Shown here piece by piece: positions 2,891 to 24,841 of a stretch of 25,007 nt of DNA. Source of the stretch: a virus; IMG/VR virus record IMGVR_UViG_3300023108_000141, positions 1 through 25,007 of that record; one strand, given 5' to 3'. The position numbers were made by a program, and so were the translations under genes. The notes below the pieces were generated by a model. It saw only the letters and a program-made list of their open reading frames with translations. It did no database searches and had not been told where the DNA came from. The number at the start of each line of letters is the position of its first letter. The stretch's first letter is position 1.

Positions 2891-5800
2891 ATGGCACAAA
2901 AAACAGACTTAAATATCAACCCATATTATGATGATTTTGATTCGGGTAAAAACTTTTATAAAGTCTTATTTAAGCCAGGATTTCCAGTTCAGGCACGAGA
3001 ATTAACTACACTTCAATCGATATTACAAAATCAGATTGAAAATTTTGGAAGTTATACATTTAAAGAAGGAACGGTAGTAATACCCGGAAACATTGTCTAT
3101 GATGGTCAATTTTATGCAGTTAAGTTAAATTCAACTGAGTTTGGTGTTGACATATCATTATATCTCAGAAGTCTTATAGGTAAGAAAATTACAGGACAAA
3201 CCTCTGGGACTACTGCGACAGTTCAATTTGTCGCTTTTCCAGATGGTGGAGATATTCAAGATCCAACAATTTATGTGAAGTATGTAGATTCTAATGATAA
3301 TTTTGTCTTTGATCAGTTTGTAGATGGAGAATCATTGTCTGCAGATGAAAATGTAGTTTATGGAAACACAACTATCACTGCTGGAACTCCATTTGCGTCT
3401 CTTATCAGTTTAAACGCAACTTCTATCGGTTCAGCAGCATCAATTGGAGAAGGAATATATTTTATTAGAGGATATTTTGCGAAAGTTTCAAAGCAAACAA
3501 TATTACTTGACAAGTATACAAACACACCATCTTACAGAGTTGGTTTAACAATTAGCGAATTGCTTGTCAACGCTAAAGACGATGGATCTTTATATGACAA
3601 TGCTAGAGGATTTACAAATTATGCCGCACCAGGTGCAGATAGATTACAAATTAATTTAACATTATCTAAGAAGTTACTCACAGACACCAATGATACGGAC
3701 TTTGTAGAACTTCTTAGAGTAGAAGATGGTAAAATAAAGAAAATTGAAAATAAGACTCAACTCAACAGACTTGGTGATTACATCGCAGAAAGAACATATG
3801 AGGAGTCTGGGCATTATGCATTAGACAATTTTAAAGTATCTTTACACAATTCACTCAATGACAAGTTGGGAAATGATGGACTGTTTTTTAACAATCAATC
3901 TACAGATCAACTTAATATACCTTCCGATGATCTCATGTGTGTAAAAGTTTCTCCTGGAGAAGCTTATGTTGGTGGTTATAATGTGGAAAAAGTATCAAAT
4001 ACAATTATTGATGTAGAAAAACCAAGAGATACTGCAACAGTATCTACTGCAAATATTCCCTTTGAAATGGGAAATCTTCTCAGAGTCAATAATGTAACTG
4101 GGGCACCAAAACAAAAAGAATCTATCGATCTTTATAATAGACACACTAATGGTGGTGGAACTAAAATAGGAGATGCCAGAGTTTATACGTTTAATCTAAC
4201 AGGATCTGCATATCAAGATGGATCTACCAATTGGGATTTATATTTGTATGATGTTCAAACATATACGGAGTTGACATTAAACACTCCAGTAGGACCTTTA
4301 AATCTTATAACATCATCATATATTAAAGGAAAGAGTAGTGGTGCAAGTGGATATGCAGTTTCATCAGGATCTGGTAGCGCAGTAAGTATTAGACAAACTT
4401 CAGGAACTTTCTCCGTAGGCGAGCAGTTGATTATCAATGGTGTTGATGCTTCTGCCACTGTAGCGTCAGTAATTGTATATGGAACTAGAGATATTAAATC
4501 TGTTTCTCAAACTGGTGTCTCCGATTTTCCAGATTTTTCTGCAAATACTGTACTAGATTCTATTGATCTTCCTAATGGAATTGTTGGTGGAACAATCAGT
4601 GGAGGAAATACACTTGTAAGTCCAGGAAAGGTATTTACCGGAGTCAAAGTTGGAGATGTCATTAGATATCAGACTTCTTCTGGCGATGAAACATTCAATA
4701 GAGTTACTGCAGTCAGTACGTCATCACTTACCATTGGAATTGGAACCACTGTTTCTGGTATATCTAAAGGGGAAGTTACTAACGGAACATACTCTCAAAT
4801 AAAACTTGGTGTTCCAGCGCTGAGAAATCAGGATAAGGGATATCTTTACGCAGAACTTCCAGATTCCAATATTGAATCGGTAAATCTTTCTGGTTCATCA
4901 CTAAAAATATCTGAGCAAATTACTGGTGAAACGACTGACGGCAGTGGTGTCTTAACATTTGACTTATCTTCGGGTGGAATTACTTCTGGAATCACAAGTG
5001 CATTCTTTGATCCATTTGATGAGGAAAGGTATTCTGTTCATTACACTGGTGGTGGAATTGGAACAGTAACTTCTGATGCGTTCTCTATTAGTGGGAATGT
5101 CGTCACCATTAATGGATTAGATACTAGTGAGACTAGTGTTGTAGTAAATGCTTCTCTTACAAAGAATGGTATTCAAAGTAAAATAAAAGAATACACAAGA
5201 AGTTCAACACTTGATGTCATCTATTCAAGAGATCAACAGTCTGGTGTTGGCGTCAATACTTCTATTAACGATGGTCTTACTTATAATACAAACTATGGAC
5301 TGAGAGTTCAAGATGAAGAAATTTCTTTAAACTATCCAGACGTAGTAAAAGTTCTTGCCATTCACGAATCATTAGACGAAAACGCATCAACATTGGATCA
5401 AATTCAGTTCTTTGATGCTTCTGTAGTGAGTAATGCCATCATTGGTGAAAACATTACCAGTTCTACAAGTAACACTATAGCAAGAGTAGTTGCGAAACCA
5501 ACGTCTCTTTCTTTATCTGTCGTATATTTAAATCAAGATAGATTTATTGCTGGAGAAAGTGTCACGTTAGAAGAATCTAACAATACAGCTTCACTTCAAT
5601 CTGTAACTAAAGGTTCTTATAAGGATGTTACTTCATCCTTCACGTTAGACAAAGGTCAAAAGGATCAATATTACGACTATTCCAGACTTGTCAGAAGTTC
5701 AAATACACCAATTCCTTCCAGAAGATTGAAAGTTGTATTTGATCATTACACGGTTCCCGCCTCAGATAGTGGTGATGTTTATACCGTTCTCAGTTATGAT

Positions 5801-8800
5801 GATGAAAGATTTACTGAGGATATTCCTTCTATCGGAGCTAGAAAAGTAAGAGCTTCTGATACACTTGATTTTAGACCAAGAGTATCACAGTTCACTGCTA
5901 CTGACAAATCACCATTTGACTTTGACTCAAGAAGTTTTGGAACTTTACCAAAACTTATTTTAAAACCAAAAGAAAGTTCGTTAGTTGGTTATAATTATTA
6001 TCTGCCAAGAATTGATAAAATATATCTAGATACATTCGGAAACTTTATTGTACAAAAAGGAATTTCCGAGATTAATCCAAAAATTCCAACAAATAAAAAT
6101 CCTGATGGATTGATGGATTTGGGAACAATATCTCTTCCAGCATATCTGTATGATCCAAGTGATGCTGATATTTCTCTGGTAGATAATAGAAGATATACCA
6201 TGAGAGATATTGGAAAACTTGAAGATAGAATTGAAAATCTGGAGAGAGTTACTTCACTTTCTCTCTTAGAAGTAAACACACAAACTCTTCAAGTTCAGGA
6301 TGCACAAGGAAATAATAGATTTAAGACTGGATTCTTTGTAGATGATTTTAAGAATAATTCTCTAATCAATCTAGATGTTTCTTCAATAGAAGTAGACACT
6401 GATGCTCAAGAACTTACAACTATAATTAGTGACAATTCTCTTAAGAGTCAGATAGCACCTTCAACCGATACTACCGATGAAAATTTAGATCTGTCTACAA
6501 ACTTTGATCTATTAGATTCAAACGTTCAAAAGACAGGAAATGCAATTACATTAAAATATAATAGTGTTGGTTGGATTGAACAACCACTGGCAACTAAAGT
6601 AGAAAATGTAAATCCATTCCATGTAGTTTCTTATAATGGATTTGTTAAACTTTCTCCTACTAATGATAGTTGGGTTAGAACTGTCAGACTTGCAGACTCC
6701 AATTCTTCAGTCACAAGGAGAGTTCCAGATCCAAATCGTAGAGGAACAACAGGAACGTTTGTAACTTCTAGAGATGTTGTAGTTTCTTCTGGCAAAGATG
6801 CATACATGCGTTCCAGAAATACACAATTCTCAGCAAACAATCTGAAACCACTTACAAAATTCTATCAATTCTTTGATGGAAACGGTAGTGTTGACTTTGT
6901 TCCAAAATTACTTGAAATATCTAATGATTCAACACTCGTAAATTATGGTTCTGTTGGTTCTTTTGAAGTTGGGGAAACTGTAATTGGATATAGTGATGGC
7001 GAATCTGTAATAACATTTAGATTGTGTTCTGGAAATCATAAAGAAGGAACTTTTAATTCACCATCAAAGATTTTTAACATAAATCCTTACATAAAATCAG
7101 AAAATCTTTCTGCCGTATACAGCCAATCTTCAAAAGTTCTTAATATTGACACATTTGCTCTTTCGGAAGAAGCGCAAGGAAAGTATTCTGGGTATATTAA
7201 AACAGGAACAAAATTAGTAGGACAAACAAGTGGTGCCGTTGCATATGTTAAGGATCTTCGTTTGATCAGTGATAATTATGGCGATCTTTTGGGATCTTTC
7301 TTCCTGAGAGACCCATACACTGTCCCAGCACCTGCTGTCAGAATATCTACAGGAACTAAAACATATAAACTGACAAACAGTCCTACAAACGCCGCTCCTC
7401 TCCCAGGAAGCAAATTACAGTCAACCGCAGAGGCATCATACAGATCTGAGGGTAGATTTGAAGTTCGTCAGCGTCAAACTACTAGAGTCACTGCTAATTT
7501 CTATGATCCTCTAGCACAATCATTTAGTGTTGGTGGAACAATTGATGCTCCAGATTTAAATGGGCAAAATGACGATGCCAACGGTGCTTTCTTGACCGCA
7601 GTAGATCTTTTCTTTGCTAACAAACCATCTGGAAATGATCCAGTAAGAATTGAAATAAGAACTGTTGAATTGGGAACTCCAACAAGAACAATTATTGGAA
7701 ATCCTACAACACTCAGACCTACTGATATTACAACTTCAACAAATGGCGAAACCGCAACAACTGTAACCTTTGATTATCCAATTTATCTGGCTCCTGGACA
7801 AGAGTATGCAATTGTTGCTGTAGCAGAAACAACTGATGAATATGAATTGTGGATTGCTGAGATGGGCGAAAAAACAATCAATACACAATCCCTACCCAAC
7901 GCAGAATCGATTATTTATTCAAAACAGTTTGCTCTCGGAAGTTTGTTCAAGTCCCAAAATGGATCTATTTGGACTGCCAACCAGTATCAAGATCTTAAAT
8001 TTAAACTCTATAAGGCAAACTTTACATCAACAACTGGAACAGCATTCTTCTATAATCCAACATTAAATGAAAGTAATGGATACGTTGAGAATTTATCAAA
8101 CAATCCTATTACAACATTACCAAAGACAGTAACCCTTGGAATATCCACAATTCCCGAGGGTGATGGAAATATCGGTATTTTAACAGTTGGTAGAAAAGTT
8201 TCTGGAACTAATGGATTTGGATATGGTCATATTGTTGGGCAAGGAAGTTCTGTCGCCAATGTTACTATTACTGATGGTGGAGAAAATTATGTAAGTGCCT
8301 CTGATTTGGCAACTACAAATATTGTTGGTAGTGGTTCCGGTCTTAGAGTCAGTATTACTGCAACTAATGGTGTTGTCACTGGAATCGCTGCGACAACGAA
8401 TACTGGAAATGGATATCAAGTCGGTGATGTTGTTGGAATTACAACCACATTAGGAAGAGATGCACAGTTTACTATCCAGTCAATTACTGGATTAGATACT
8501 TTATATTTGAGTAATGTTCAGGGCGAAAAAGGTGCATCCAAGACTTTCCAAGTTGGTGCTGCATTGAGCTACTATAACGACTCTGGAACTATTGTTTCTC
8601 TTGCAAGCACAACAATTACTGACAGAACTTCTGAAGGATCCGGTCTGAATTCTGGAAATTATTTAAAAGTAGATCATTTTGATCATGGAATGTACTATTC
8701 CACAAATAAGGTCATTATTTCGGATATCGAATCAAACGTCCCACCAACAACTTTAGATTCTGCTTTATCGATTGACGAGTCAGCAACAATTAGTGTTGCA

Positions 8801-12679: not shown

Positions 12680-14107
12680 ATGACACTCAATCCATTTTTC
12701 TTACAAGGATCTCCTAGAGAGCAATTCCTAATACAAGATTTGATAAATGAACAACTGAAAATTTATGGGATTGATGTTTATTATCTTCCCAGAAAATTTT
12801 TGAAAACTGATGATATTTTGGGAGAGATTCAATCTTCTAGATTTGATGACAACTTTGTCATTGAGGCATATCTGGACAATTATGAGGGATATGCTCCTGG
12901 ATCTGATATAATGACGAAATTTGGATTAAGATTAAAAAATGAAATAAATTTGATAATTTCTCAAGAAAGATTTGAAGACTTTATAACTCCATATTTGGAA
13001 GGAATAAAACTTGGAATTGAAGAGGGTAATATCACCGATCAAACAATGACAATCACCTCCAGACCAAGAGAGGGTGATTTAATATATTTTCCTTTAGGGG
13101 AAAGACTATTCGAAATTAAAAGAGTTGAGGCAGAAAAACCTTTTTATCAATTAGGAAAAACATATGTATATGAACTGCAGTGCGAACTTTATGAATATGA
13201 AAATGAAGATATTGATGTATCTGTAGAAGAAATCGATAATACAGTTCAAGATGAAGGTTACATTACAACTTTAACACTGGAACCTGTTGGTGCTGACGCA
13301 AGTGCAACGGCAACTATTGGTGGTGCTGGTATGGTTGGACTAATTAGTCTAACTAATGATGGATATAACTATACTTCAACACCAGTTGTAACTATATCTG
13401 ATCCAACAAGTGGAACTACGGCAACTGCTGTTGCTATAACAACATCTATTGGCGGTATAAAATCCGTAAAGGAAATTAGAATAACAAATGCTGGATCTGG
13501 ATATACCTCATCAGATCCTCCGACAGTCACTATAACTGGAGGAAGTGGAACAGGAGCAGCTGCTACAGCGATAATTGTTGATAACGGTGTACAAACACTA
13601 TCAATTTCTACTGCTGGTACTGGATACTTCTATGCTCCCATCGTCACCATTTCTGGTCCTGCAGTTGGAACAACAGCAACGGCAGAGGCAATTGTAAATC
13701 CATCAACGGGTGGTGTTTCTCAACTCCAAATAACAAATACTGGAGCAGGATACACATCCGCACCAACAGTATCAATAGCAGGAGTATCAACCACAGGAAT
13801 AGGAACATATCAACTCAGAGAAACTATAACAGGTTCACTTTCTGGAACAACAGCAGAAATTAGAAATATAGTAATCAGAACAGATATTGATTTGAATGAT
13901 CCACCGATAGAATTGTATGTTGCTGTAAATGACGGACAGTTCTCTGCTGGAGAAGTAATAACTGGTTCAGATTCTTCTGCTTCCTATATACTTAAATCAT
14001 ATGATAATGATAGTTATGAAGAATCTTTTGACAATAACGAAGAAATTGAAACAGAAGCAGACAATATATTAGATTTCACTGAATCAAATCCATTTGGAGA
14101 ATATTAA
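12680..14107 (+). CDS. 14: Neck protein gp14 with a large repeat insertion
   Basis: gp14 is the second neck protein and works with gp13 at the portal vertex. Residues 1 to about 190 carry the family core: NPFFLQGSPREQFLIQDLIN, then VYYLPRKFLKTDDILGEI at 33-50, a YLDNYEGYAPGSDIMTKFG stretch and RPREGDLIYFPLGERLFEI at 128-146. The length is 475 residues against 256 in T4. The excess is a block at about 205-440 with four GxGYTSxPTVTISG-type repeats and an ETITGSLSGTTA module, before an acidic tail ending in LDFTESNPFGEY. The insert is probably an exposed beta domain on the neck, an inference from its repetitive Gly/Thr/Ser composition. The stop overlaps gp15 by 1 base. Confidence 0.92.
   Translation: MTLNPFFLQGSPREQFLIQDLINEQLKIYGIDVYYLPRKFLKTDDILGEIQSSRFDDNFVIEAYLDNYEGYAPGSDIMTKFGLRLKNEINLIISQERFEDFITPYLEGIKLGIEEGNITDQTMTITSRPREGDLIYFPLGERLFEIKRVEAEKPFYQLGKTYVYELQCELYEYENEDIDVSVEEIDNTVQDEGYITTLTLEPVGADASATATIGGAGMVGLISLTNDGYNYTSTPVVTISDPTSGTTATAVAITTSIGGIKSVKEIRITNAGSGYTSSDPPTVTITGGSGTGAAATAIIVDNGVQTLSISTAGTGYFYAPIVTISGPAVGTTATAEAIVNPSTGGVSQLQITNTGAGYTSAPTVSIAGVSTTGIGTYQLRETITGSLSGTTAEIRNIVIRTDIDLNDPPIELYVAVNDGQFSAGEVITGSDSSASYILKSYDNDSYEESFDNNEEIETEADNILDFTESNPFGEY
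13361..13798 (+). repeat. Four tandem repeats of about 42 residues within gp14
   Basis: Repeat starts lie at residues 228, 272, 313 and 355: GYNYTSTPVVTISDP, GSGYTSSDPPTVTITG, GTGYFYAPIVTISGP and GAGYTSAPTVSIAG. The first three are followed by GTxATA-like strands and then a linking strand such as EIRITN or QLQITN. The regular period and conserved Gly/Tyr/Pro positions show expansion by internal duplication. Confidence 0.85.
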
Positions 14108-14907
14108 TGTTAGGGACTTATTTTTATCACGAAATTATAAGAAAAACGATTGTTAGTTTCGGAACTCTTTTTAATAATATTTACATTAAACATGAGGATA
14201 AAAACAATAACGTAGTAGATGAAACAAAAGTTGGACTTTCATATGGTCCAATGCAGAAGTTTTTGGCAAAGTTGGAGCAACAGGCAGATTTAAAAAAACC
14301 TATTGCAATCACTTTACCAAGAATGTCTTTTGAAATGGTTTCTTTACAATATGATCCAACAAGAAAAACTAGTGTAACTCAAACCTTTAGAGCATCAGAT
14401 GATGCTGGCAATATAAAGAAAGTTTATATGCCAGTTCCTTATAATATTGGTTTTGAATTAAGTATCTACTCAAAATTAAGTGATGATGCTTTACAAATTG
14501 TCGAACAAATACTACCATTTTTCCAACCATCATTTAATTTGACTTTGGATTTGGTAGATTCAATTGGTGAGAAAAAAGATATACCAATTGTTCTTGACAG
14601 TATTGATATGCAGGATGATTATGAGGGAGACTTTACCGTAAGAAGAGCACTTATCTATACTTTGAGATTTACTGTAAAGTCATATCTGTTTGGTCCTATT
14701 GCAGATTCTACGGAAGGTCTCATTCGTAAGGTTCAAGTTGATATGTATGCTGATACCAATACTCAGACTGCTAAGAGAGAGGTCAGATATACAGTAACAC
14801 CAGATCCTATTAATGCTGATCCTGATGATGACTTTGGGTTTAGCGAAGTTTGGGAAGATTTTACAGATTCTAAGACTTATAGTCCAACTCAACAAACTGA
14901 TATTTAA
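14107..14907 (+). CDS. 15: Tail sheath stabiliser and completion protein gp15
   Basis: gp15 caps the top of the tail tube and sheath and forms the connector to the neck. The N-terminus MLGTYFYHEIIRKTIVSFGT and the segment FNNIYIKHED are typical, as are LSYGPMQKFLAKLEQQADLK at about 44-63, ITLPRMSFEM and PYNIGFELSIYSKLSDDALQ. The length of 266 residues is close to the 272 of T4, unlike the enlarged gp8, gp14 and gp18. The acidic C-terminal tail ends in PTQQTDI. It is translationally coupled to gp14 by a TAATG overlap, and gp16 follows after 5 bases. No unusual feature was seen. Confidence 0.93.
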   Translation: MLGTYFYHEIIRKTIVSFGTLFNNIYIKHEDKNNNVVDETKVGLSYGPMQKFLAKLEQQADLKKPIAITLPRMSFEMVSLQYDPTRKTSVTQTFRASDDAGNIKKVYMPVPYNIGFELSIYSKLSDDALQIVEQILPFFQPSFNLTLDLVDSIGEKKDIPIVLDSIDMQDDYEGDFTVRRALIYTLRFTVKSYLFGPIADSTEGLIRKVQVDMYADTNTQTAKREVRYTVTPDPINADPDDDFGFSEVWEDFTDSKTYSPTQQTDI

Positions 14908-14912
14908 AAATT

Positions 14913-15338
14913 ATGTCTGATAATTATGATTCAATCGATGAAGCTTTAAATGTTGAGAGTAAGATCGTAAAGACAGAAAAAGTTTCGTCAGAAATTCAAA
15001 ATGTAAAACCCAAAGGTCCTGATATTGAAAAGGACTATGAATACACTCGTGCCAATCTCTACTCCTTAATTGAAAAAGGACAGGAGGCAATCAATGGAAT
15101 TATGGAACTTGCTGGCGAAGGTGGAAGTCCAAGGGCATATGAAGTGGCAGGTCAATTAATCAAAAGTGTTGCCGATACTACAGACAAACTTATTGACTTA
15201 CAGAAAAAACTTAAAGATGTTGAGGATGAATCTGTAAAAACGACTAACAATAATGTTACCAATAATGCTGTATTTGTTGGATCAACCACCGAGTTACAAA
15301 AACTACTCAAACAAGGTTTTCTAAATAATAAAGAGTAA
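14913..15338 (+). CDS. 16: Small terminase subunit gp16
   Basis: This is the DNA-recognition and regulatory subunit of the packaging motor, which acts with gp17 at the portal. The protein has a central helical pair (DYEYTRANLYSLIEKGQEAI, then a GIMELAGEGGSPRAYEVAGQ stretch) and a second long helix (IKSVADTTDKLIDLQKKLKD at about 87-106). This matches the two-helix coiled-coil oligomerisation core of T4-type gp16. An Asn/Thr/Val-rich linker leads to a C-terminal helix with ELQKLLKQGF. The length is 141 residues against 164 in T4. Unlike T4, where gene 17 follows directly, two additional genes separate it here from gp17. The ATG follows the gp15 stop after 5 bases, with no strong Shine-Dalgarno sequence. 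Confidence 0.88.
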   Translation: MSDNYDSIDEALNVESKIVKTEKVSSEIQNVKPKGPDIEKDYEYTRANLYSLIEKGQEAINGIMELAGEGGSPRAYEVAGQLIKSVADTTDKLIDLQKKLKDVEDESVKTTNNNVTNNAVFVGSTTELQKLLKQGFLNNKE

Positions 15339-15350
15339 ACTTGTTTCCTA

Positions 15351-16751
15351 ATGGGTTGGTCAGAAAAATATAAAAAATCAATTGATTGTGACAACCCAAA
15401 AGGTTTTAGTCAACGTGCCCATTGTCAGGGTAAGAAGAAAAAAATGTCAGAAGAAAAAAAAGATCACGAATACTCAATGGCACGGTCTGAGTTGAAAACT
15501 GTGACTAATGCCGCAAAGCGTCTTCAAAAGAAGATGGGTAAGAAAGGTGAGGGCAATCTGCAAGCTTGGGTACAATCCAAAATCACAAAAGCAGCAGATT
15601 ACATTGATACTGCCGCAGATTATGTAACTAATGAAGAAACCGTAAGTGAAGAGGGACTCCGAGATTGGTTCGGAAAGTCCAAATCAAAAGATGGTAAAAA
15701 AGGTTGGGTTAATGTTGTAACAGGTGGAACCTGTGCAAGTGACGAACCTGGAGAAGGAACTCCTAAGTGTGTCTCTTCTGCAAAAAGAGCAAGTATGAGT
15801 AAGGCAGAGAGACTTTCTGCTCAAAGAAGAAAGAAGAAAGCGGATCCTGGTCAACAACAAAAGTCTGGTGCCGCAAAACCAACATATGTTTCTACAGACC
15901 CTAAGAAGAAAATGAAAAAAGAAGAAGTAGAAGTAACAGAAGCAAAGGATAAACCAGGTAAGGGTAGTGGTAAGAAAGATGCTTGTTACCATAAGGTTAA
16001 GTCTCGTTATTCTGTATGGCCAAGTGCATATGCATCAGGAGCACTTGTAAAGTGTCGTAAGGTTGGTGCTTCTAACTGGGGTAATAAGTCAGAGTCTTAT
16101 GACTTCTCAAATTGGAGAGATGATTTCAAAGCAATTGAAATTGAAACGGTAAATCTTATTGAACCCGATCCAATTCAAGGTGGACAACCAATAGAAGAAG
16201 GTCAGAAGTGTTGGAAAGGATATGAGAAGAAGGGAACCAAAAAAATGTTTGGTAAAACCTACAATAACTGCGTGAAAAAAGAAGAATTTGAAAAAGAAAT
16301 TCCTTCTGGTGATATTAAAAAGTTGACTAAAAAAGCAGTTAAAAGAATTGATACTAATGTCAGTGGTCATGTTGACAAGAAAGATAAATCTATGGGAGAT
16401 TATGGTGAGTTTGTGCCAACACCAGATGGTAAAGGAAAATTAGTTACTTCCATAAAGAAAGAAGAGTTTTCAGATTGGAGAGAAGAACTTGGAGAGGATT
16501 GGCAGAAGGTCAACAAGGGTGATAAAACTGATGGTATGAGTCAAAAAGCAGTTAATGCTTATCGTCGTGAAAATCCTGGTTCTAAGTTAAAGACTGCTGT
16601 AACTGGTGATCCAAAACCAGGTAGCAAGGATGCCAAACGCAGAAAGTCCTTCTGCTCCCGCTCTAAGGGGCAGCAAGACATGCATAACATTGATTGCTCA
16701 AAAGACCCCGATAAAGCAATTTGTAAAGCCCGTCGTCGCTGGAAGTGCTGA
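15351..16751 (+). CDS. Modular lysine- and cysteine-rich protein between the terminase genes (466 aa), function unknown
   Basis: This protein looks like beads on a string. Separate small modules each carry cysteines: residues 1-30 (C13, C25, MGWSEKYKKSIDCDNPKGF), 102-141 (C128, C140, KKGWVNVVTGGTCAS), 208-238 (C212, C235, ACYHKVKSRYSVWPSAYASG), 282-311 (C287, C307, CWKGYEKKGTKKMFGK) and the C-terminus (C435, C449, C458, C466, with HNIDC and KARRRWKC). Highly charged Lys/Glu linkers connect them. Two related linkers, YDFSNWRDDF and EEFSDWREEL, occur between modules. I recognise such modules from marine phage proteins, but not a defined biochemical function. The strongly basic modules could bind DNA, and the cysteine sets could bind zinc or form disulphides. 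Its position between gp16 and gp17 suggests a link to packaging or an internal virion protein; this is inference. The last module has higher GC content than the rest. Confidence 0.8.
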   Translation: MGWSEKYKKSIDCDNPKGFSQRAHCQGKKKKMSEEKKDHEYSMARSELKTVTNAAKRLQKKMGKKGEGNLQAWVQSKITKAADYIDTAADYVTNEETVSEEGLRDWFGKSKSKDGKKGWVNVVTGGTCASDEPGEGTPKCVSSAKRASMSKAERLSAQRRKKKADPGQQQKSGAAKPTYVSTDPKKKMKKEEVEVTEAKDKPGKGSGKKDACYHKVKSRYSVWPSAYASGALVKCRKVGASNWGNKSESYDFSNWRDDFKAIEIETVNLIEPDPIQGGQPIEEGQKCWKGYEKKGTKKMFGKTYNNCVKKEEFEKEIPSGDIKKLTKKAVKRIDTNVSGHVDKKDKSMGDYGEFVPTPDGKGKLVTSIKKEEFSDWREELGEDWQKVNKGDKTDGMSQKAVNAYRRENPGSKLKTAVTGDPKPGSKDAKRRKSFCSRSKGQQDMHNIDCSKDPDKAICKARRRWKC

Positions 16752-16754
16752 TCC

Positions 16755-17036
16755 ATGTATATAATAAAAATTTTAGGAGAATCTACTAATATAAATGCTG
16801 GATCTGGTTCATCAGTTCCAGACTCCAATAGCATTGGAGCACGATATGTCATGGTTCAACATGACCATGCTAGTGGTAATGCACATTTGGTTGAAACTAG
16901 AACTGGTGCAGGAGTTACCATTGGAAGTTTTTACATTCCTCCACATAACCCAATAATTGTCAAGAAAGAAAGAGAAGAGTTAGTGTTTTGCAGTAGCTCT
17001 GATGTATATGCAACTTCTGTAGTTTATCAAGGATGA
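16755..17036 (+). CDS. Small beta-rich protein, similar to the protein at 23920 (93 aa)
   Basis: The ATG follows the previous stop after 3 bases. The protein seems to be a small beta barrel or sandwich: alternating strands such as ARYVMVQHDH, AHLVETRTGAGVTIGSFYIP, NPIIVKKEREELVF and YATSVVYQG. It aligns over its last 60 or so residues with the 88-residue protein at 23920, sharing VE, a GxGV turn, GSF, Pro, a VF near the end and a final Gly. A role as a small virion or decoration-type protein is possible, but I cannot assign a function. Its place directly before gp17 and the cognate copy next to gp21 suggest that both serve the head or packaging apparatus. Confidence 0.7.
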   Translation: MYIIKILGESTNINAGSGSSVPDSNSIGARYVMVQHDHASGNAHLVETRTGAGVTIGSFYIPPHNPIIVKKEREELVFCSSSDVYATSVVYQG

Positions 17037-17049
17037 TTTAATTTTTGTT

Positions 17050-18696
17050 ATGAGTGAAGTATATCTTGGTAATCCCAATCTAAAAAAAGCGAATACGCAA
17101 ATTGAGTTTACAGAGGAGCAAATCCTCGAATTCTTGAAGTGTAAAGAAGACCCAGTTTATTTTGCTAGAAACTATATCAAGATTGTGTCTCTTGATGAAG
17201 GTCTTGTACCTTTCGATATGTACCCGTTTCAGGAAAAACTAATTCAGAATTTCCATGATAATAGGTTTAATATCTGTAAGATGCCACGTCAGACTGGTAA
17301 GTCTACTACTTGTGTATCATATCTTCTGCACTACGCTGTTTTTAACGATAATGTTAACATCGCCATCCTAGCAAACAAGGCATCAACTGCTAGAGATCTT
17401 CTTGGTAGGTTACAACTTGCCTACGAAAACTTGCCAAAGTGGATGCAACAAGGTATTATATCATGGAACAAAGGTAGTTTAGAACTCGAAAATGGCTCCA
17501 AGATTTCGTCTAACTCTACTTCTTCATCTGCTGTCCGAGGCGGATCCTATAATGTCATCTTTCTTGACGAGTTCGCGTTCATCCCGAATCACATTGCTGA
17601 TGACTTCTTTGCCTCTGTTTATCCTACTATTTCTTCTGGACAGAGCACAAAGGTAATTATTGTTTCTACCCCTCGTGGTATGAATCACTTCTACCGCATG
17701 TGGCATGATGCGGAGAGGGGTAAGAACGAGTATGTTCCTACTGATGTTCATTGGTCTGAAGTTCCCGGTAGAGATGATGCTTGGAAAGAGCAGACTATTG
17801 CCAACACTTCCGAACAGCAGTTTAAGGTTGAGTTTGAGTGTGAATTCCTAGGATCCGTTAATACACTCATCAATCCAGCAAAACTTAAAAATCTTGTATA
17901 TGAAAGTCCACTAAAAAGAAATGCTGGGCTTGATATTTACGAAAATCCAAAACCAGAACATAATTATTTGATAACAGTAGACGTTGCCCGTGGATTGGGT
18001 AATGACTACTCGGCGTTTATTATTTTTGATATCACAGAGTTCCCTTATAGAGTAGTAGCAAAGTATAGAAATAACGAAATCAAACCAATGTTATTTCCCA
18101 GTGTTATTCATGATGTGGCAAAGGGATATAATGATGCATGGTTATTGATCGAAGTCAATGACATTGGAGATCAGGTAGCAAATATTCTTCACTTTGACTT
18201 AGAATATGAAAACGTTCTCATGTGTGCGATGAGAGGACGTGCTGGTCAAATTGTAGGATCTGGTTTTAGTGGTAAGAAATCTCAACTTGGGGTGAGAATG
18301 ACTGCTGCCGTCAAAAAACTTGGATGTTCTAACTTAAAGACTTTATTAGAAGATGATAAGTTGTTGACTGTTGATTATGAGATTATATCAGAACTCACAA
18401 CATTTTCACAGAAGCATAATTCTTTTGAAGCAGAAGAAGGTTGTAATGATGACTTAGCAATGTGTCTTGTTATTTTCTCATGGTTAGTGGCACAAGACTA
18501 TTTCAAAGAGATGACGGACAATGATGTTCGTAAGAGAATTTATGAAGAACAGAAAAATCAAATCGAACAAGACATGGCACCATTTGGATTTATTTTAAAC
18601 GGTATTGATGATGAAACTGAGTTTGTAGATAATAATGGAGATAGATGGTATACAGATGAATATGGAGACATGTCTTATATGTGGGATTATAAGTGA
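17050..18696 (+). CDS. 17: Large terminase subunit gp17 (packaging ATPase and nuclease)
   Basis: gp17 is the motor that pumps DNA through the portal and cuts the concatemer. The ATPase domain shows Walker A RQTGKST at 80-86, Walker B VIFLDEF at 169-175 with D173 and E174, and motif III VSTPRG at 205-210. The RNase H-like nuclease domain begins near residue 300. Its likely metal ligands are D311 (ITVDVARGLGNDY), E368 (LLIEVND) and D467/D468 (CNDDLA), matching the three acidic residues of T4 gp17. The length of 548 residues is normal, though T4 has 610. No intein or intron interrupts it. The start at 17050 follows a 13-base gap without a clear Shine-Dalgarno sequence. Base composition is visibly richer in GC in the ATPase half than in the nuclease half. 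Confidence 0.97.
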   Translation: MSEVYLGNPNLKKANTQIEFTEEQILEFLKCKEDPVYFARNYIKIVSLDEGLVPFDMYPFQEKLIQNFHDNRFNICKMPRQTGKSTTCVSYLLHYAVFNDNVNIAILANKASTARDLLGRLQLAYENLPKWMQQGIISWNKGSLELENGSKISSNSTSSSAVRGGSYNVIFLDEFAFIPNHIADDFFASVYPTISSGQSTKVIIVSTPRGMNHFYRMWHDAERGKNEYVPTDVHWSEVPGRDDAWKEQTIANTSEQQFKVEFECEFLGSVNTLINPAKLKNLVYESPLKRNAGLDIYENPKPEHNYLITVDVARGLGNDYSAFIIFDITEFPYRVVAKYRNNEIKPMLFPSVIHDVAKGYNDAWLLIEVNDIGDQVANILHFDLEYENVLMCAMRGRAGQIVGSGFSGKKSQLGVRMTAAVKKLGCSNLKTLLEDDKLLTVDYEIISELTTFSQKHNSFEAEEGCNDDLAMCLVIFSWLVAQDYFKEMTDNDVRKRIYEEQKNQIEQDMAPFGFILNGIDDETEFVDNNGDRWYTDEYGDMSYMWDYK

Positions 18697-18917
18697 TGGA
18701 TTTTGACGATCAAATAGAACTAGAACACTTACTGTTCTTTGATCGCAAATGTAGAGTGTGTGGGGAAGTTAAAAGTTTATTAGATGATTACTATTTGACA
18801 AGAAGGGACAGAGGAACCTTACCATCTGCATATTCATATGAATGTAAAGAGTGTACAATAAAAAGAATAAAATCTAAAAAGAAAAAGGAAGTGTTGTGGG
18901 AATATCCCGATTGGTAG
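18696..18917 (+). CDS. Four-cysteine mini-protein (zinc-ribbon-like, 73 aa)
   Basis: The start was set at the ATG that overlaps the gp17 TGA by one base (TGATG). A GTG 3 bases earlier would add one residue. The protein carries two CxxC pairs, KCRVCG (C19, C22) and ECKECT (C50, C53), separated by a 27-residue loop. A Lys/Arg-rich stretch follows (IKRIKSKKKKEV) and the end is WEYPDW. The arrangement fits a small zinc-binding domain resembling the zinc-binding part of HNH-type phage proteins, but no HNH catalytic motif is present. The basic tail could contact nucleic acid. Coupling to gp17 suggests a packaging or regulatory role; this is inference. I do not recognise a specific named family. Confidence 0.75.
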   Translation: MDFDDQIELEHLLFFDRKCRVCGEVKSLLDDYYLTRRDRGTLPSAYSYECKECTIKRIKSKKKKEVLWEYPDW

Positions 18918-18957
18918 ATATTCACGCATGGTTTCCCCGCTGAAAATAACCCTTTTC

Positions 18958-18964
18958 CTAAATA
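18958..18964 (+). promoter_or_regulatory. Probable late promoter variant CTAAATA before gp18
   Basis: The 82-base gap before gp18 has no exact TATAAATA. It has CTAAATA in the same position relative to the gene, 42 bases before the ATG. The same variant precedes gp20. A short CTAAA/TTTAG inverted repeat overlaps it. Confidence 0.45.
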
Positions 18965-18999
18965 TTTTTAGATAAATTTGGATTGCGAGGAAAAACAAG

Positions 19000-21429
19000 A
19001 TGCCATTAAATTTAGCATCTCCTGGTATTGTAGTAAGGGAAGTAGACCTTACGGTAGGAAGAGTTGATCCAACTTCTGCGAGTATTGGAGCTATTGCGGC
19101 ACCTTTTGCTCAAGGTCCAGTAGATCTTCCTACATTAGTTGAGAACGAACAAGACTTACTGAACGTATTCGGTAAACCATATTCTCAGGATAAGCACTAC
19201 GAGCACTGGTTAACGGCATCGTCGTTCCTGGCATATGGTGGTTCTCTGAGAGTTGTAAGAGCTGATAACAGTAATCTTTACAACGCAGCATCTTATGTTG
19301 GTGCTGCTTCTAGTACAAAAATTAAAAGTGTTGAGCACTACGAACAGCTTGGATATGACGAGAACACCATCAGCGGTGTTGTAGTTGCCGCAAAAAACCC
19401 AGGATCCTGGGCAAACGGTCTGAGAGTTGGAATTATTGATGCCAAGGCAGACCAAATTCTTGGAATCAGTACTGAAGCAGTATCCAATAGAACTTTTAGT
19501 GCTAATGCATCTCCAACTGACGGAGATATTGTCGGAACTGCATTATCAATTACCGGAATTACTACTACTGGTATTCTTCTTGGAGACACTGTAGAAGAAA
19601 TTACTGGTATTATTGGTTCTGGTGTTACTGTTACTGGTATCACTACAACTGGTGTTGTAACTTTAAGTGCGGCAACTTTAAACGAAAATCCACTTACAAA
19701 CGTATCATTTAGTTTTGGATCTTATACCACCACTGTGTCACAAGCTGCTTTGGCAGTTGGTTATGGTGTTACTCAAACAATTTCTGCTACTCTTCCAGGA
19801 GCAGGAACAACAACCGTTCTTGATGGATACTTAAAAGGAGTTATTACAGAAGTTGGAAGTGGTCAAGTAAGTGTAAAAGTTGTTAGTCACGTTTCTGCTG
19901 CTGGAACAGAAACTGAAGTAGATTATCAACCATCTGGTGTTTATTCCTTCTCTGGAAGTGGAAATGTTGCCATTCATACCAATGGAGAAACAACCTCCTA
20001 TGGATCAACAGCAGTCTCTTCGCAAGTAGATTGGTTTGATCAACAAAATCTTTCACTGACTTCTACTTCAACGGTTAAGTGGAATACTGTTGCTGATCGT
20101 CCAGGTACTTCCGAGTATGCTGCCGCAAGAGGATCTAGATTTGATGAAGTTCACGTTGTAGTTATTGATGGTCAAGGAAAGGTTACTGGAAATGCAGGAA
20201 CAATCCTTGAGAAGCATCTCAGTCTTTCTAAGGCAAAAGACGCAGAGTTCTCGGTAGGATCACCTTCTTATTGGAGAGGTTATCTCAAGAGCAATTCAGA
20301 ATATCTCTTTGGTGGAGCACAACCAGCAGGCATTGTAACCACTGGATATAGCGCAGACTTTACTCTTGAAACTGATGTAAATTGGGATCAAGATGCTGAA
20401 GGTATTACATTTGCTGCAAAAGGTAATTTGAATGCCGAGTTGACGACTGGAACCAACTACGATTTAGGAACAAACGTTGAAAACGCAGGAGCACTTAGTG
20501 CTTCTCTGAGTGGTCTTGTTGGTGGATATGATTTGTTTGAGAATACTGAGAACTATGAGGTAGATTTCCTTCTGATGGGATCTGCAGCATATGGTAAGTC
20601 AGATGCCCAGGCACTCGCAAACAAACTGATCGCAGTTGCTGAAGCAAGAAAAGATTCACTCGCATTCATCTCACCATACAGAGGTGCTGCAATTACTGAT
20701 AGTACTGATGACACTGCTGCTCAAATCAACTCAGATTCTGATATCACTGATAACGTTCTGAGTTTCTATGCACCTGTCACATCTTCATCTTATGGTGTCT
20801 TTGATAGTGGTTATAAGTACATGTATGATAGATTCGCAAACACATTCCGCTATGTTCCTCTGAACGGAGACATCGCTGGACTTTGTGCTCGCAATGACAT
20901 CAACAACTTCCCATGGTTCTCACCAGCAGGAACTGCAAGAGGATCAATCCTTAATGCTGTAAAACTTGCTTATAATCCTTCTAAGACTCAAAGAGATAAA
21001 CTTTACTCCGCAAGAGTAAATCCAGTCATCTTCTCACCTGGTGCTGGTATTGTTCTCTTTGGTGATAAAACTGGACTTGCTAAAGCATCGGCATTTGACA
21101 GAATTAACGTTCGTCGTTTGTTCGTATACCTTGAAGATGCAATCTCTGCTGCTGCCAAGGATCAACTCTTTGAATTCAACGATGAGATTACAAGAACCAA
21201 CTTTGTAAATATCGTTGAACCATTCCTCCGTGATGTTCAGGCTAAGAGAGGAATTTCAGATTATGTTGTTATTTGTGATGAAACAAATAACACTGCTGCC
21301 GTCATCGACAACAATGAGTTTGTCGCAGACATCTTCATCAAACCTGCAAGGTCGATTAACTTCATCGGTCTTACATTTGTTGCCACCAGAACTGGTGTTG
21401 CTTTTGAAGAAGTAATTGGTAACGTTTAA
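19000..21429 (+). CDS. 18: Tail sheath protein gp18
   Basis: gp18 is the contractile sheath subunit that surrounds the tail tube. The N-terminus MPLNLASPGIVVREVDLTVG and the following segment with ASIGAIAAPFAQGPVDLPTL are typical of the family. The conserved C-terminal domain is clear at about 690-806: ASAFDRINVRRLFVYLEDAI, TNFVNIVEPFLRDVQAKRGI and SINFIGLTFVATRTGVAFEE. The length is 809 residues against 659 in T4. The extra length seems to be in the middle part, where repeated ITGITTTG strands occur at 184-218 and are followed by further Ser/Thr/Gly-rich strands up to about 345. Such a middle domain would lie on the sheath exterior (inference). The start has a good ribosome site, GCGAGGAAAAACAAG, directly before the ATG. 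gp19 follows after 23 bases. Confidence 0.96.
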   Translation: MPLNLASPGIVVREVDLTVGRVDPTSASIGAIAAPFAQGPVDLPTLVENEQDLLNVFGKPYSQDKHYEHWLTASSFLAYGGSLRVVRADNSNLYNAASYVGAASSTKIKSVEHYEQLGYDENTISGVVVAAKNPGSWANGLRVGIIDAKADQILGISTEAVSNRTFSANASPTDGDIVGTALSITGITTTGILLGDTVEEITGIIGSGVTVTGITTTGVVTLSAATLNENPLTNVSFSFGSYTTTVSQAALAVGYGVTQTISATLPGAGTTTVLDGYLKGVITEVGSGQVSVKVVSHVSAAGTETEVDYQPSGVYSFSGSGNVAIHTNGETTSYGSTAVSSQVDWFDQQNLSLTSTSTVKWNTVADRPGTSEYAAARGSRFDEVHVVVIDGQGKVTGNAGTILEKHLSLSKAKDAEFSVGSPSYWRGYLKSNSEYLFGGAQPAGIVTTGYSADFTLETDVNWDQDAEGITFAAKGNLNAELTTGTNYDLGTNVENAGALSASLSGLVGGYDLFENTENYEVDFLLMGSAAYGKSDAQALANKLIAVAEARKDSLAFISPYRGAAITDSTDDTAAQINSDSDITDNVLSFYAPVTSSSYGVFDSGYKYMYDRFANTFRYVPLNGDIAGLCARNDINNFPWFSPAGTARGSILNAVKLAYNPSKTQRDKLYSARVNPVIFSPGAGIVLFGDKTGLAKASAFDRINVRRLFVYLEDAISAAAKDQLFEFNDEITRTNFVNIVEPFLRDVQAKRGISDYVVICDETNNTAAVIDNNEFVADIFIKPARSINFIGLTFVATRTGVAFEEVIGNV
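19552..19653 (+). repeat. Duplicated TGITTTG strand motif within gp18
   Basis: TGITTTGILLGDTVEEITG starts at residue 185, and a second TGITTTGVVTLSAATLNENP starts at residue 212, a 27-residue period. It lies in the part of the sheath protein that is enlarged relative to T4. Confidence 0.6.
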
Positions 21430-21452
21430 TTAAATTAGAGGTTTAACGAACT

Positions 21453-22046
21453 ATGGCAACCCGTCAACAACAAAATAACATTCCACTCAGAAAAATCACT
21501 GATTTTAAGAGTAAGTTAACTGGTGGTGGTGCAAGACCCAATCTCTTTGAAGTTGAGTTAGCATTCCCAGGTGCCGTTGGTGTCGATAATGACACTCTCC
21601 AAAAGGCAAGATTCCTTGTCAAGGCAGCGGCACTGCCTGCATCAACAGTCGCTCCAATTGATGTTCCATTTAGAGGTCGTATTCTTAAGATCGCTGGAGA
21701 CAGAACATTCGAAACTTGGACAATCACTGTCATCAACGATGTTGATTTCTCCATTCGCTCAGCATTTGAGAAGTGGATGAACACAATCAATAAGGTAAAT
21801 GATGGCACTGGACTGACTGATCCAGAAGCATACCAGGCAGATGCATATGTCTATCAACTTGCTCGTGACGGTGGTATTCTCAGATCTTACCACTTCTATG
21901 ATGTATTCCCAACCAATATTTCAACAATTGACCTGAGTTACGAAACTACTGATACTCTTGAGGAGTTTACGGTAGAACTTCAGGTTCAGTGGTGGGAAGC
22001 ATCAAAGGGAACTTCTCCTAATGCTGGTGGCGAAGACATTAACTAA
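21453..22046 (+). CDS. 19: Tail tube protein gp19
   Basis: gp19 forms the stacked hexameric rings of the inner tail tube through which DNA is delivered. Family features are visible: RPNLFEVELAFP near residue 28, then ARFLVKAAALPASTVAPIDV, PFRGRILKIAGDRTFETWTI at about 70-89, FSIRSAFEKWMNTIN, and a C-terminus with YHFYDVFPTNISTIDLSYET and EFTVELQVQWWE. The length is 197 residues against 163 in T4, consistent with the longer forms of marine T4-like phages. An AGAGG ribosome site lies 11 bases before the ATG. There is no promoter motif between gp18 and gp19, so both are probably transcribed together, while a CTAAATA motif at its stop codon starts the next unit. Confidence 0.95.
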   Translation: MATRQQQNNIPLRKITDFKSKLTGGGARPNLFEVELAFPGAVGVDNDTLQKARFLVKAAALPASTVAPIDVPFRGRILKIAGDRTFETWTITVINDVDFSIRSAFEKWMNTINKVNDGTGLTDPEAYQADAYVYQLARDGGILRSYHFYDVFPTNISTIDLSYETTDTLEEFTVELQVQWWEASKGTSPNAGGEDIN

Positions 22047-22049
22047 ATA
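22043..22049 (+). promoter_or_regulatory. Probable late promoter variant CTAAATA before gp20
   Basis: The motif contains the TAA stop of gp19 and lies 35 bases before the gp20 start. It is the same variant as before gp18 and differs from TATAAATA in the first bases only. Confidence 0.5.
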
Positions 22050-22077
22050 GTAGAATAACAGTCTAGTCAAGATTATA

Positions 22078-23724
22078 ATGGCAAAACTTTTTGGTTTTTC
22101 AATTGAGGATAAAGATAAAAAATCCGCTTCTATAGTGTCCCCCGTTCCTCAGTCAAATGAGGACGGGGTTGATCATTATATTTCTAGTGGATTTTATGGT
22201 CAATATGTAGATATTGAAGGTGTATATAGAACTGAGTTTGATCTAATCAAAAGATATCGTGAGATGGCACTTCATCCGGAATGTGATGGTGCCATCGAAG
22301 ATGTTGTTAATGAAGCAATTGTCAGTGATCTTTATGATTCTCCGATTGAAATTGAACTATCTAATTTGAATGCAACTGATAAACTCAAAAAAGTAATCAG
22401 AGAAGAATTTAAAAGAATTAAAGAAATACTTGATTTTGATAGAAAGTCGCATGAAATTTTTAGAAATTGGTATGTTGATGGAAGACTTTTTTATCTGAAG
22501 GTAATTGACACCAAAAAACCACAAGAAGGAATCAAAGAACTTAGATATATTGATCCATTAAAGATCAAATACATTAGACAAGAAAAGAAAAAACCAGAAG
22601 AACAAAGACTTGTAAATCTCAGACTTCAATCTGCCGATAGAGTAGCAAATCCAGAGATTGATGAGTATTATCTCTATACTCCAACTCCAAGTTATCCTTC
22701 TACTTCTGGCGGACAACAAAAGAATTCTGTAAAGATTGCAAAGGATTCTATCACATATGTAACTTCAGGTCTTGTTGATAGAAATAAAGGATCAGTTCTT
22801 TCATATCTTCATAAAGCAATCAAAGCACTCAATCAACTTAGAATGATTGAGGATTCTCTTGTTATTTACAGATTATCACGAGCACCAGAACGTCGTATTT
22901 TCTATATTGATGTTGGCAATCTTCCAAAAGTAAAGGCAGAACAATATCTTCGTGATGTTATGATGCGCTATCGTAACAAGTTGGTTTATGATGCCAACAC
23001 CGGAGAAGTTCGCGATGATAAAAAGCATATGAGTATGCTTGAAGATTTTTGGCTTCCAAGAAGAGAAGGTGGTAGAGGAACTGAAATCTCCACACTTCCT
23101 GGCGGTCAAAATCTTGGAGAACTTGCAGATATTGAGTATTTCCAAAAGAAACTTTACAGAGCACTTGGAGTTCCCGAGTCAAGAATCGCTGCCGATGGTG
23201 GTTTCAATCTTGGTCGTTCTTCCGAAATTCTGAGAGACGAACTCAAGTTTGCCAAGTTTGTTGGACGTTTGAGAAAGAGATTTGCTCAGATGTTTAATGA
23301 CATGTTGAAAACGCAATTGATTCTCAAGAACATTGTGTCTCCAGAAGATTGGGAAATGATTTCCGATCATATTCAATATGATTTCTTATATGATAATCAG
23401 TTTGCAGAATTAAAAGAAACCGAAATGCTCAATGAGCGTCTTGGTGTTCTGGCAACTATTGAACCTTATATTGGTAAGTATTATTCTACTGAATGGGTTC
23501 GTAAGAAAGTTCTTCGTCAGACTGATTCAGAAATGATTGAGATGGATGAGCAGATTGAACAGGAAATTAAAGATGGTATTATTCCTGATCCCAATTCTAT
23601 AGATCCAATAACAGGAGAACCATTACCACAAGAAGGTGAAATGGGAATGATGGGTGATGTTCCAATGGAACCAGAAATAAATGGTGGAATCACTGCTGCT
23701 GATGGCAAATCTGCCGAGATATAA
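22078..23724 (+). CDS. 20: Portal vertex protein gp20
   Basis: gp20 forms the twelve-subunit portal at one capsid vertex. It starts head assembly, anchors the terminase and later the neck. Typical parts are GVYRTEFDLIKRYREMALHP near residue 49, CDGAIEDVVNEAIVSD, then RAPERRIFYIDVGNLPK at about 268-284. The strongly conserved centre reads EDFWLPRREGGRGTEISTLP from about 321, followed by GGQNLGELADIEYFQKKLYR and RSSEILRDELKFAKFVGRLR. The length of 548 residues is close to the 524 of T4. The C-terminal tail is Met/Pro/Glu-rich and flexible. The gene is widely used as a marker for marine cyanomyoviruses, so its sequence could place this phage. The ATG at 22078 has no strong ribosome site. Confidence 0.97.
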   Translation: MAKLFGFSIEDKDKKSASIVSPVPQSNEDGVDHYISSGFYGQYVDIEGVYRTEFDLIKRYREMALHPECDGAIEDVVNEAIVSDLYDSPIEIELSNLNATDKLKKVIREEFKRIKEILDFDRKSHEIFRNWYVDGRLFYLKVIDTKKPQEGIKELRYIDPLKIKYIRQEKKKPEEQRLVNLRLQSADRVANPEIDEYYLYTPTPSYPSTSGGQQKNSVKIAKDSITYVTSGLVDRNKGSVLSYLHKAIKALNQLRMIEDSLVIYRLSRAPERRIFYIDVGNLPKVKAEQYLRDVMMRYRNKLVYDANTGEVRDDKKHMSMLEDFWLPRREGGRGTEISTLPGGQNLGELADIEYFQKKLYRALGVPESRIAADGGFNLGRSSEILRDELKFAKFVGRLRKRFAQMFNDMLKTQLILKNIVSPEDWEMISDHIQYDFLYDNQFAELKETEMLNERLGVLATIEPYIGKYYSTEWVRKKVLRQTDSEMIEMDEQIEQEIKDGIIPDPNSIDPITGEPLPQEGEMGMMGDVPMEPEINGGITAADGKSAEI

Positions 23725-23727
23725 ATA
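23720..23727 (+). promoter_or_regulatory. T4-type late promoter TATAAATA before gp67
   Basis: An exact consensus that includes the gp20 TAA stop, 33 bases before the start of the gp67-like gene. It probably serves the gp67 - small protein - gp21 unit. Confidence 0.7.
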
Positions 23728-23752
23728 AAAAATATAGTTATAATCACTTTTC

Positions 23753-23920
23753 ATGGAAGAAATTGTAAATTTGATAGGATCGGATGCTTCCGCTTCGGAT
23801 ATTAGCGACAAGATCAAAGATGCTCTTTATGCAAAATCTGCACAAAGAATTGATGCTGTTCGTCCAACTGTTGGCGCATCCTTATTCGGTGACGATCAAT
23901 CATCAGAGGAACAAGAATAA
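23753..23920 (+). CDS. 67: Prohead core protein gp67-like (55 aa)
   Basis: This short frame runs from the ATG in TTTTCATGGAAG to TAA and encodes 55 residues: MEEIVNLIGSDASASDISDK, then an IKDALYAKSAQRID helix, VRPTVGASLFG and an acidic end DDQSSEEQE. Length class, the MEE(I/L) start, an amphipathic helical middle part and an acidic tail agree with T4 gp67 (80 residues), the small internal core protein that is cut by gp21 during head maturation. Position between gp20 and gp21 is the same as in T4. It fills the gap behind an exact late promoter, and its stop overlaps the start of the next gene by one base (TAATG), which supports that it is translated. Confidence 0.78.
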   Translation: MEEIVNLIGSDASASDISDKIKDALYAKSAQRIDAVRPTVGASLFGDDQSSEEQE

Positions 23921-24186
23921 TGGCAAGAACATTATTGAAAGGTGCTGAAATAGCACTACCAACAACAACGGGTGCTGCCACTAGTTTTAGTCAGGCAACA
24001 GTTGTACGTTTGGTTAATACAGGATCTGTTGCTGTTGTTGAAGTAGTAGAGTCGCAAAGTGGTACTGGCGTTGGTTCTTTCACGATGCCAGCAAATACCG
24101 TTGAGTATTTGGAAAAAACACCAACACATTGCGTTTTTGCTAGTGCCGCAACAGTCAAAGGAGCACAAGTAGGATTTACTGGATAA
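23920..24186 (+). CDS. Small beta-rich protein between gp67 and gp21 (88 aa)
   Basis: This gene sits where T4 has gp68, but the protein does not look like the helical core protein gp68. It is strand-rich: TVVRLVNTGSVAVVEVVESQ, GTGVGSFTMPANTVEYLEKT, THCVFASAATVKGAQVGFTG. The C-terminal two thirds align with the protein at 16755 next to the large terminase gene. The start overlaps the gp67-like stop by 1 base and gp21 follows after 4 bases, so expression with the head core genes is expected. A small capsid-associated or decoration role is possible; I cannot assign one from sequence alone. Confidence 0.72.
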   Translation: MARTLLKGAEIALPTTTGAATSFSQATVVRLVNTGSVAVVEVVESQSGTGVGSFTMPANTVEYLEKTPTHCVFASAATVKGAQVGFTG

Positions 24187-24190
24187 ACAA

Positions 24191-24841
24191 ATGAAACTTA
24201 TCACAGAAGAAATTTCAAACGTACAGATTATCACCGAAGGAAAAGGTGCTAATAAGAAACTGTACATTGAGGGAGTTTTCCTTCAGGGAGACATCAAAAA
24301 CCGCAATGGTAGAATGTATCCTATGGAAACTCTTTCCCGTGAAGTTGGAAGATATAACGAAACTTTCGTTAAGAAAGGACGTGCTCTTGGTGAACTTGGT
24401 CACCCCGATGGTCCTACCGTAAACCTTGATCGTGTTTCTCATAAGATTACTTCACTTGTTCAAGAAGGAAGTAATTTTAGAGGAAAGGCACAAATCCTTA
24501 ATACTCCAATGGGTAAGATTGCATCTTCTCTTCTTGATGAAGGTGTGATGCTCGGCGTTTCTTCTCGTGGTGTTGGTTCATTGAGAACCACAAATGAGGG
24601 TCATAAAGTTGTCGGTGAAGACTTCATGTTGGCAACTGCTGCCGACATCGTTGCCGATCCTTCTGCACCTGATGCTTTTGTTCAGGGAATTATGGAAGGA
24701 AAAGAGTGGGTTTGGGAAGGAGGAATTCTTCGTGAACAACTCGCAGAAAGAACTCAGAAGAGAATTAACACTCTTGTTGACCAAAGAAGACTTGAAGAGC
24801 ATAAGTTGAACCTTTTCAACGATTTTCTCTCAAATCTTTAA
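24191..24841 (+). CDS. 21: Prohead core protein and maturation protease gp21
   Basis: gp21 is the serine protease of the prohead core that degrades the scaffold and trims head proteins. The protein shows GVFLQGDIKNRNGRMYP at 28-44 and the conserved histidine in ELGHPDGP (H71). The likely nucleophile lies in LGVSSRGVGS, S124 or S125, where the family has a Ser in a comparable SxRG context. The length of 216 residues agrees well with T4 (212). The C-terminal region contains a helical segment with EQLAERTQKRINTLVDQRRL. The neighbours, gp67 upstream and gp22 downstream, are its substrates in T4. The start follows the previous gene after 4 bases. Confidence 0.95.
   Translation: MKLITEEISNVQIITEGKGANKKLYIEGVFLQGDIKNRNGRMYPMETLSREVGRYNETFVKKGRALGELGHPDGPTVNLDRVSHKITSLVQEGSNFRGKAQILNTPMGKIASSLLDEGVMLGVSSRGVGSLRTTNEGHKVVGEDFMLATAADIVADPSAPDAFVQGIMEGKEWVWEGGILREQLAERTQKRINTLVDQRRLEEHKLNLFNDFLSNL

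Follow-up and report, generated by a model that had tools for sequence, protein, structure and literature searches.

A shuffled modular protein of marine T4-like cyanophages is a predicted internal-head polyprotein

A modular gene between two terminase genes

The window analysed here is a 25,007-nucleotide stretch of viral DNA (IMG/VR record IMGVR_UViG_3300023108_000141, positions 1 to 25,007) from a T4-like cyanophage. An open reading frame at 15351-16751 (+) encodes a protein of 466 amino acids. Upstream are gp13/14/15-type neck and tail proteins and a terminase small subunit (gp16; 14913-15338; PHROG 445, 6.5e-57), and downstream are a 93-aa protein (16755-17036) and the terminase large subunit (gp17; 17050-18696; PHROG 2, 3e-73), followed by sheath, tube, portal and a gp21-type prohead protease (24191-24841 (+); PHROG 207, head maturation protease, 8e-81). 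The 93-aa protein and a second small protein just upstream of the protease gene (23920-24186) share PHROG 19805, which is of unknown function. In T4, genes 16 and 17 overlap, so nothing lies between them. The closest isolate by DNA is Synechococcus phage S-SKS1 (79% identity over 77% of 14000-24841), and IMG/VR contigs carry an identical protein.

An earlier note, made from the sequence alone, described five cysteine-containing modules joined by charged linkers, two of which share an FSxWR motif. That observation is confirmed and is more than chance, given the number of relatives and the constant Cys counts of the modules described below. The 12 cysteines lie at residues 13, 25, 128, 140, 212, 235, 287, 307, 435, 449, 458 and 466, as the note had placed them, and FSNWRDDF (aa 252-259; 16104-16127 (+)) and FSDWREEL (aa 373-380; 16467-16490 (+)) are the only motifs of this kind in the main ORFs of the window. 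However, there are seven modules rather than five, because two cysteine-free modules were missed, and one of the proposed domain cuts, at residue 420, falls inside a Pfam domain.

Module m1 (aa 3-31; 15357-15443 (+)) reads WSEKYKKSIDC..NPKGFSQRAHCQG and has one Cys pair, with exactly two Cys in 19 of 19 copies. Module m1b (aa 37-92; 15459-15626 (+); DHEYSMARSEL..TAADYV) is one of the two that were missed; it is free of cysteine and helical in the structure model. Module m2 (aa 103-183; 15657-15899 (+); LRDWF..GWVNV..C..PKC; PHROG 3477/12753) has one Cys pair and a basic tail, and module m3 (aa 209-247; 15975-16091 (+)), KDACYHKVKSRYSVWPSAYASGALVKCRK, has one Cys pair. Module m4 (aa 287-310; 16209-16280 (+)), CWKGYEKKGTKKMFGKTYNNCVKK, is a predicted beta-hairpin (291-309 in the model) with one Cys pair. 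Module m6 (aa 322-356; 16314-16418 (+)), the other missed module, is cysteine-free; it has a D-x-D-x-D-G-type loop in relatives (RIDTDVDGDVD) that is degenerate here. Module m5 (aa 383-466; 16497-16748 (+)) contains DUF6321 (PF19846; aa 391-464, 2.8e-11, 44.3 bits against a gathering cut-off of 28.5) and is helical; C435 and C466 are conserved, whereas C449 and C458 occur in a subset of the family.

The protein belongs to a widespread family without explanation. In total, 408 phage records match, mostly from Synechococcus and Prochlorococcus phages, and 498 IMG/VR stretches encode relatives. DUF6321 is the only curated domain, and the PHROGs involved (727, 3477, 12753 and others) have no assigned function. 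Thirteen recurrent modules, scored across 36 non-redundant members, occur in 30 different architectures. Modules m1, m2, m2b, m3, m4, m4b and m5b have exactly two Cys in every copy scanned; m5a has four, m0 and m7 have three, m1b and m6 have none and m8 usually has none. Of 465 Cys, 434 lie in modules.

No NCBIfam family was hit, a sequence search of the PDB returned nothing meaningful (ferritin at E 0.76) and a scan of bacterial and archaeal genomes with the whole protein found no relative. A weak Pfam hit of a P-TIM68 homologue to a cobra-type toxin family (E 0.04, below the cut-off) is taken as a coincidence of Cys spacing. DUF6321 modelled alone is a small helical domain (pLDDT 75) with no PDB match; the significant BFVD matches are named DUF6321 relatives, an S-SCSM1 virion protein or unnamed entries. 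A scan of seven genomes for an FSxWR-type DNA pattern led, besides proteins already seen, to one more module-bearing gene, in S-SCSM1. A 663-aa cysteine-free protein of P-SSM2 (PSSM2_125; 6234-8225 of the P-SSM2 stretch L004), between gp16 and gp17, has FSxWR-like peptides at both ends (LNNWREEF..., YSWRDEL...) and a DIIKPEPIKG linker like that of the window family.

Placement of phi-x-E sites at module boundaries

Nearly every module in the family is preceded by phi-x-E, in which phi is L, I, V or M; this is a prohead-protease site of the T4 gp21 type. Examples, with a slash at the predicted cut, are VKE/EGLRDWF, VSE/GTLHKWF, VTE/AKDKPGKGSGKKDACY, IIE/GKDK, IDE/GQKCWKGY, MDE/AKKCWPGY, LDE/GAAW and LGE/DWQK. 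The window protein has six phi-x-E, of which five lie at module edges, one lies in the FSNWR linker and none lies inside a module. Those at module edges are MSE/E (aa 32-34; 15444-15452 (+)), VSE/E (aa 98-100; 15642-15650 (+)), VTE/A (aa 195-197; 15933-15941 (+)), IEE/G (aa 281-283; 16191-16199 (+)) and LGE/D (aa 380-382; 16488-16496 (+)), with predicted cuts after residues 34, 100, 197, 283 and 382. The sixth, LIE/P (aa 269-271; 16155-16163 (+)), is doubtful because of the proline that follows the cut.

Across the family, phi-x-E occurs at 0.27 per 100 aa inside modules and at 3.95 per 100 aa in linkers. Of 168 unique linkers, 140 contain a site, compared with 75.5±5.7 when each linker is shuffled; in the last 20 residues the figures are 126 of 161 and 53.9±5.5. 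Linkers are rich in Glu, so part of the enrichment is owing to composition (113 of 197 sites are expected after shuffling), and family members share ancestry, so the shuffle tests overstate independence. The stronger argument is recurrence across unrelated module types: 150 of 180 unique boundaries have a site within 25 aa, and most of the 13 module types carry it at a near-fixed distance from their start. The residue after phi-x-E (P1') is A or G in 30% of cases, compared with 10.6% after other Glu; in 94 control ORFs the figures are 14.8% and 13.0%.

T4 gp21 cuts after L/I-x-E, and the first ten residues of T4 IPIII target it to the prohead core, with residues 4 and 7 important for targeting and residues 8 and 10 for cleavage (PMC9026906). 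The T4 sequences show MKTYQEFIAE/A for IPII and IPIII and LTE/A for gp23; by eye, the corresponding positions of cyanophage gp23 read LTE/T (S-SM1) and LSE/A (S-SKS1). Val occupies P3 at 49 of 138 boundary sites in the family, although T4 gp21 prefers L or I; tolerance of V or M by the cyanophage enzyme is assumed.

Targeting-like peptides, one-module forms and virion data

A gene immediately downstream of the family gene begins MKSFQQFLSES, MKNFKQFLSES or similar, as T4-like capsid-targeting peptides do, in 41 of 53 loci with enough sequence, although the downstream gene of the window itself lacks a clear targeting N terminus. This neighbour (about 102 aa; for example, 5456-5761 of phage stretch L019) appears by eye to carry an m8-like strand–helix domain, a module that also occurs inside the modular proteins. 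Similar peptides occur within the chains: KSFEQFIGE (S-T4) and KSFGQFME/DWQ (stretch L068) just before DUF6321, KNFTSFMEA just before module m0 (P-TIM68) and KTFAQFID in a linker (stretch L048). The pattern gives 5 hits compared with 0.11 expected from shuffling and none in 41.8 kaa of control ORFs; one of the five lies inside module m8 and is discounted. The window protein has FSxWR linkers only. The position before DUF6321 is taken by FSDWREELGE/DWQ, where relatives have KSFGQFM or KSFEQFI, and FSNWRDDF recurs across the family, so we propose FSxWR as an alternative docking peptide. It has tryptophan where the T4 peptide has Phe and its equivalence rests on shared position, which leaves it undecided whether the window protein carries a capsid-targeting peptide.

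Of 75 distinct DUF6321 loci, 53 are stand-alone genes of about 70-110 aa. Two of these begin MRAYEFINE/DWNKVNK and MVPFKTFISE/DWSKVNK (stretches L156 and L157), that is, targeting peptide, site and module. Podoviruses carry DUF6321 as a free gene with no phi-x-E before it, next to scaffold and capsid genes (P-SCSP1k gene 16 and HTVC119P gp28). These phages lack a T4-type protease, a point that was not tested here. Genes on other phage contigs start MKINEIISE, MKISELLTE, MRAKEFVSE and MKVSEILEN (L141:649, L146:2598, L151:2685 and L156:1298), so the targeting-plus-site N terminus may be a general tag of packaged proteins.

Virion mass spectrometry of related phages, which the note had named as a place to look for the protein, lists homologues. 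S-CREM2 ORF136 (with the targeting N terminus MQTFSMFFSE), ORF137 (m8 and DUF6321) and ORF160 (m2b, m4 and m3) were detected in purified virions with 8, 4 and 7 unique peptides, respectively (PMC10665884, Table 3); the coverage of ORF137 is only 4.1%. We matched the ORF coordinates of that paper to GenBank coordinates. In S-SCSM1, the orthologue SSCSM1_29 and SSCSM1_92, which carries m6 and FSNWR, are labelled virion protein in GenBank, and the paper reports 45 virion proteins by mass spectrometry (PMC9602691); individual detection rests on the label in the record. Location within the virion is not shown by these data, which leaves presence inside the mature head an unsettled point. Virion-detected cytidylyltransferase/NMNAT-like enzymes of S-CREM2 (ORF154; 15609-16469 of stretch L130) and S-SCSM1 (ORF91; 820-2049 of stretch L131) also start with T4-like targeting peptides (MKNFSSFLTE/A and MKSFLQFLKE/A), a likely reason why they are found in virions. 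S-CREM2 ORF155 (L130:16492-17013), a virion-detected hypothetical protein, has the related motif ARYSWREELSE/K near its N terminus.

A predicted prohead-core polyprotein and its alternatives

The interpretation offered in the earlier note is partly supported. A shuffled set of independent mini-domains is supported by the architectures, an internal virion protein by the homologues in virion lists, and basic DNA-binding character by composition only. Two conditions had been named in advance as fatal to this view, a single continuous known fold and a described function for the family, and neither was found: AlphaFold2 gives no single fold for the whole chain (pLDDT 41), which was not searched for fold matches, and no family hit or paper found here assigns a function. 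General zinc sites are not supported. Most Cys-bearing modules have exactly two Cys rather than four conserved ligands, and C449 and C458, which are present or absent together, are lacking from much of the family; His ligands were not examined.

We consider it most likely, with moderate confidence, that the gene encodes an internal-head polyprotein, in which basic mini-domains, most with one Cys pair, are joined by acidic linkers that carry capsid-targeting-like peptides (FSxWRxxL, or KSFxQF in relatives) and a gp21-type site immediately before most modules. In this view, the linker peptides would dock the protein into the prohead core, gp21 (encoded at 24191-24841) would cut after the phi-x-E sites during maturation, and the freed basic mini-proteins would stay in the head with the DNA and may enter the host with it, as many T4 internal proteins and Alt do, to protect the DNA or to act on the host. 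Our sequence analysis demonstrates the shuffling of modules, the placement of sites at module edges, the targeting-like peptides and the stand-alone one-module forms, and the presence of homologues in purified virions is taken from published work, whereas cleavage, injection and final function are inferred. No cleavage product has been seen directly, and this study included neither peptide-level virion data nor an assay of gp21. In a further reading, which we regard as about as likely as not, T4-like cyanophages assemble an interchangeable cargo from cassettes of targeting peptide, protease site and mini-protein that are shuffled between genomes, loaded into the prohead in fixed ratio, released by the maturation protease and injected as a set of host-acting or DNA-protecting mini-proteins.

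ALTERNATIVES. Fossil start codons do not explain the hydrophobic P3. If modules were recent gene fusions, phi-x-E could be only the remnant ATG or GTG start of former genes, and some sites do read MSE, MNE or MTE, as real gene starts do. However, GTG accounts for 4 of 46 Val codons at P3 compared with 57 of 713 in the background, and Ile and Leu, mostly not start codons, make up about half of the sites, so this is the least likely alternative. An uncut DNA-condensing or internal head protein, in which phi-x-E and acidic linkers are only flexible hinges, remains possible but is unlikely. The detection of homologues in virions and the basic composition fit without cleavage, and AlphaFold2 gives the linkers very low confidence. 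On the other hand, hinges need neither a hydrophobic residue at P3 nor A or G at P1', yet both are enriched, the sites sit at a near-fixed distance from each module and stand-alone units have the site right after a targeting N terminus.

A terminase accessory factor, one of the roles suggested in the note, is not supported and we regard it as very unlikely. The gene lies between the terminase genes in the window, S-T4, S-SRM01 and S-SM1, but linkage to gp16 and gp17 is not conserved: the family sits between gp15 and gp16 in P-SSM2, has no terminase annotated nearby in S-PRM1 and is split over three loci in P-TIM68, and DUF6321 follows the capsid gene in podovirus P-SCSP1k. Moreover, the gp16–gp17 interval is a known hot spot for variable genes (PMC3037559). 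A tail, neck or outer-capsid structural protein is equally improbable. Neighbouring genes encode neck and tail proteins and some records call homologues 'structural protein'; however, the protein is basic, no tail or decoration family was hit, and the targeting peptides and the one-module forms beside scaffold and capsid genes point inside the head.

Among described systems, the T4 internal head proteins IPI, IPII, IPIII and Alt share a targeting peptide with aromatic residues three apart, a phi-x-E site directly before the functional part, basic cargo and packaging in the prohead core (PMC9026906). T4 internal proteins hold one cargo with one N-terminal targeting peptide, whereas here up to eight unrelated modules share a chain with a site before nearly each; no DUF6321 occurs in T4. 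Polyvalent proteins of phages and conjugative elements (Iyer et al. 2017, PMC5512222) also combine many unrelated domains in shuffled architectures, with predicted virion packaging and injection, but contain larger, mostly enzymatic domains and often an embedded peptidase. Here the modules are roughly 25-85 aa in length without known enzymatic domains, only DUF6321 was found by Pfam, and the proposed protease acts in trans. In the giant phages phiKZ and SPN3US, the head-maturation protease trims head and ejected proteins after a short motif ending in Glu (PMC5694885); cleavage there removes propeptides, and we found no description of a chain of separate cargo modules. The DUF6321 and PHROG 727, 3477 and 12753 entries describe sequence only, without a function or a modular cleavage logic. 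Literature searches for a cyanophage internal-protein or prohead-protease polyprotein, which did not cover subscription papers, found no description of it.

If this reading is true, it supplies about a dozen mini-proteins as candidates to test for anti-defence or host-takeover activity, and gives a sequence rule (targeting peptide plus phi-x-E) for spotting injected proteins in T4-like phage genomes. It would suggest why an NMN adenylyltransferase-like enzyme, which carries the same N-terminal targeting peptide, turns up in cyanophage virions, and it would account for a large, unannotated protein family of some of the commonest marine viruses.
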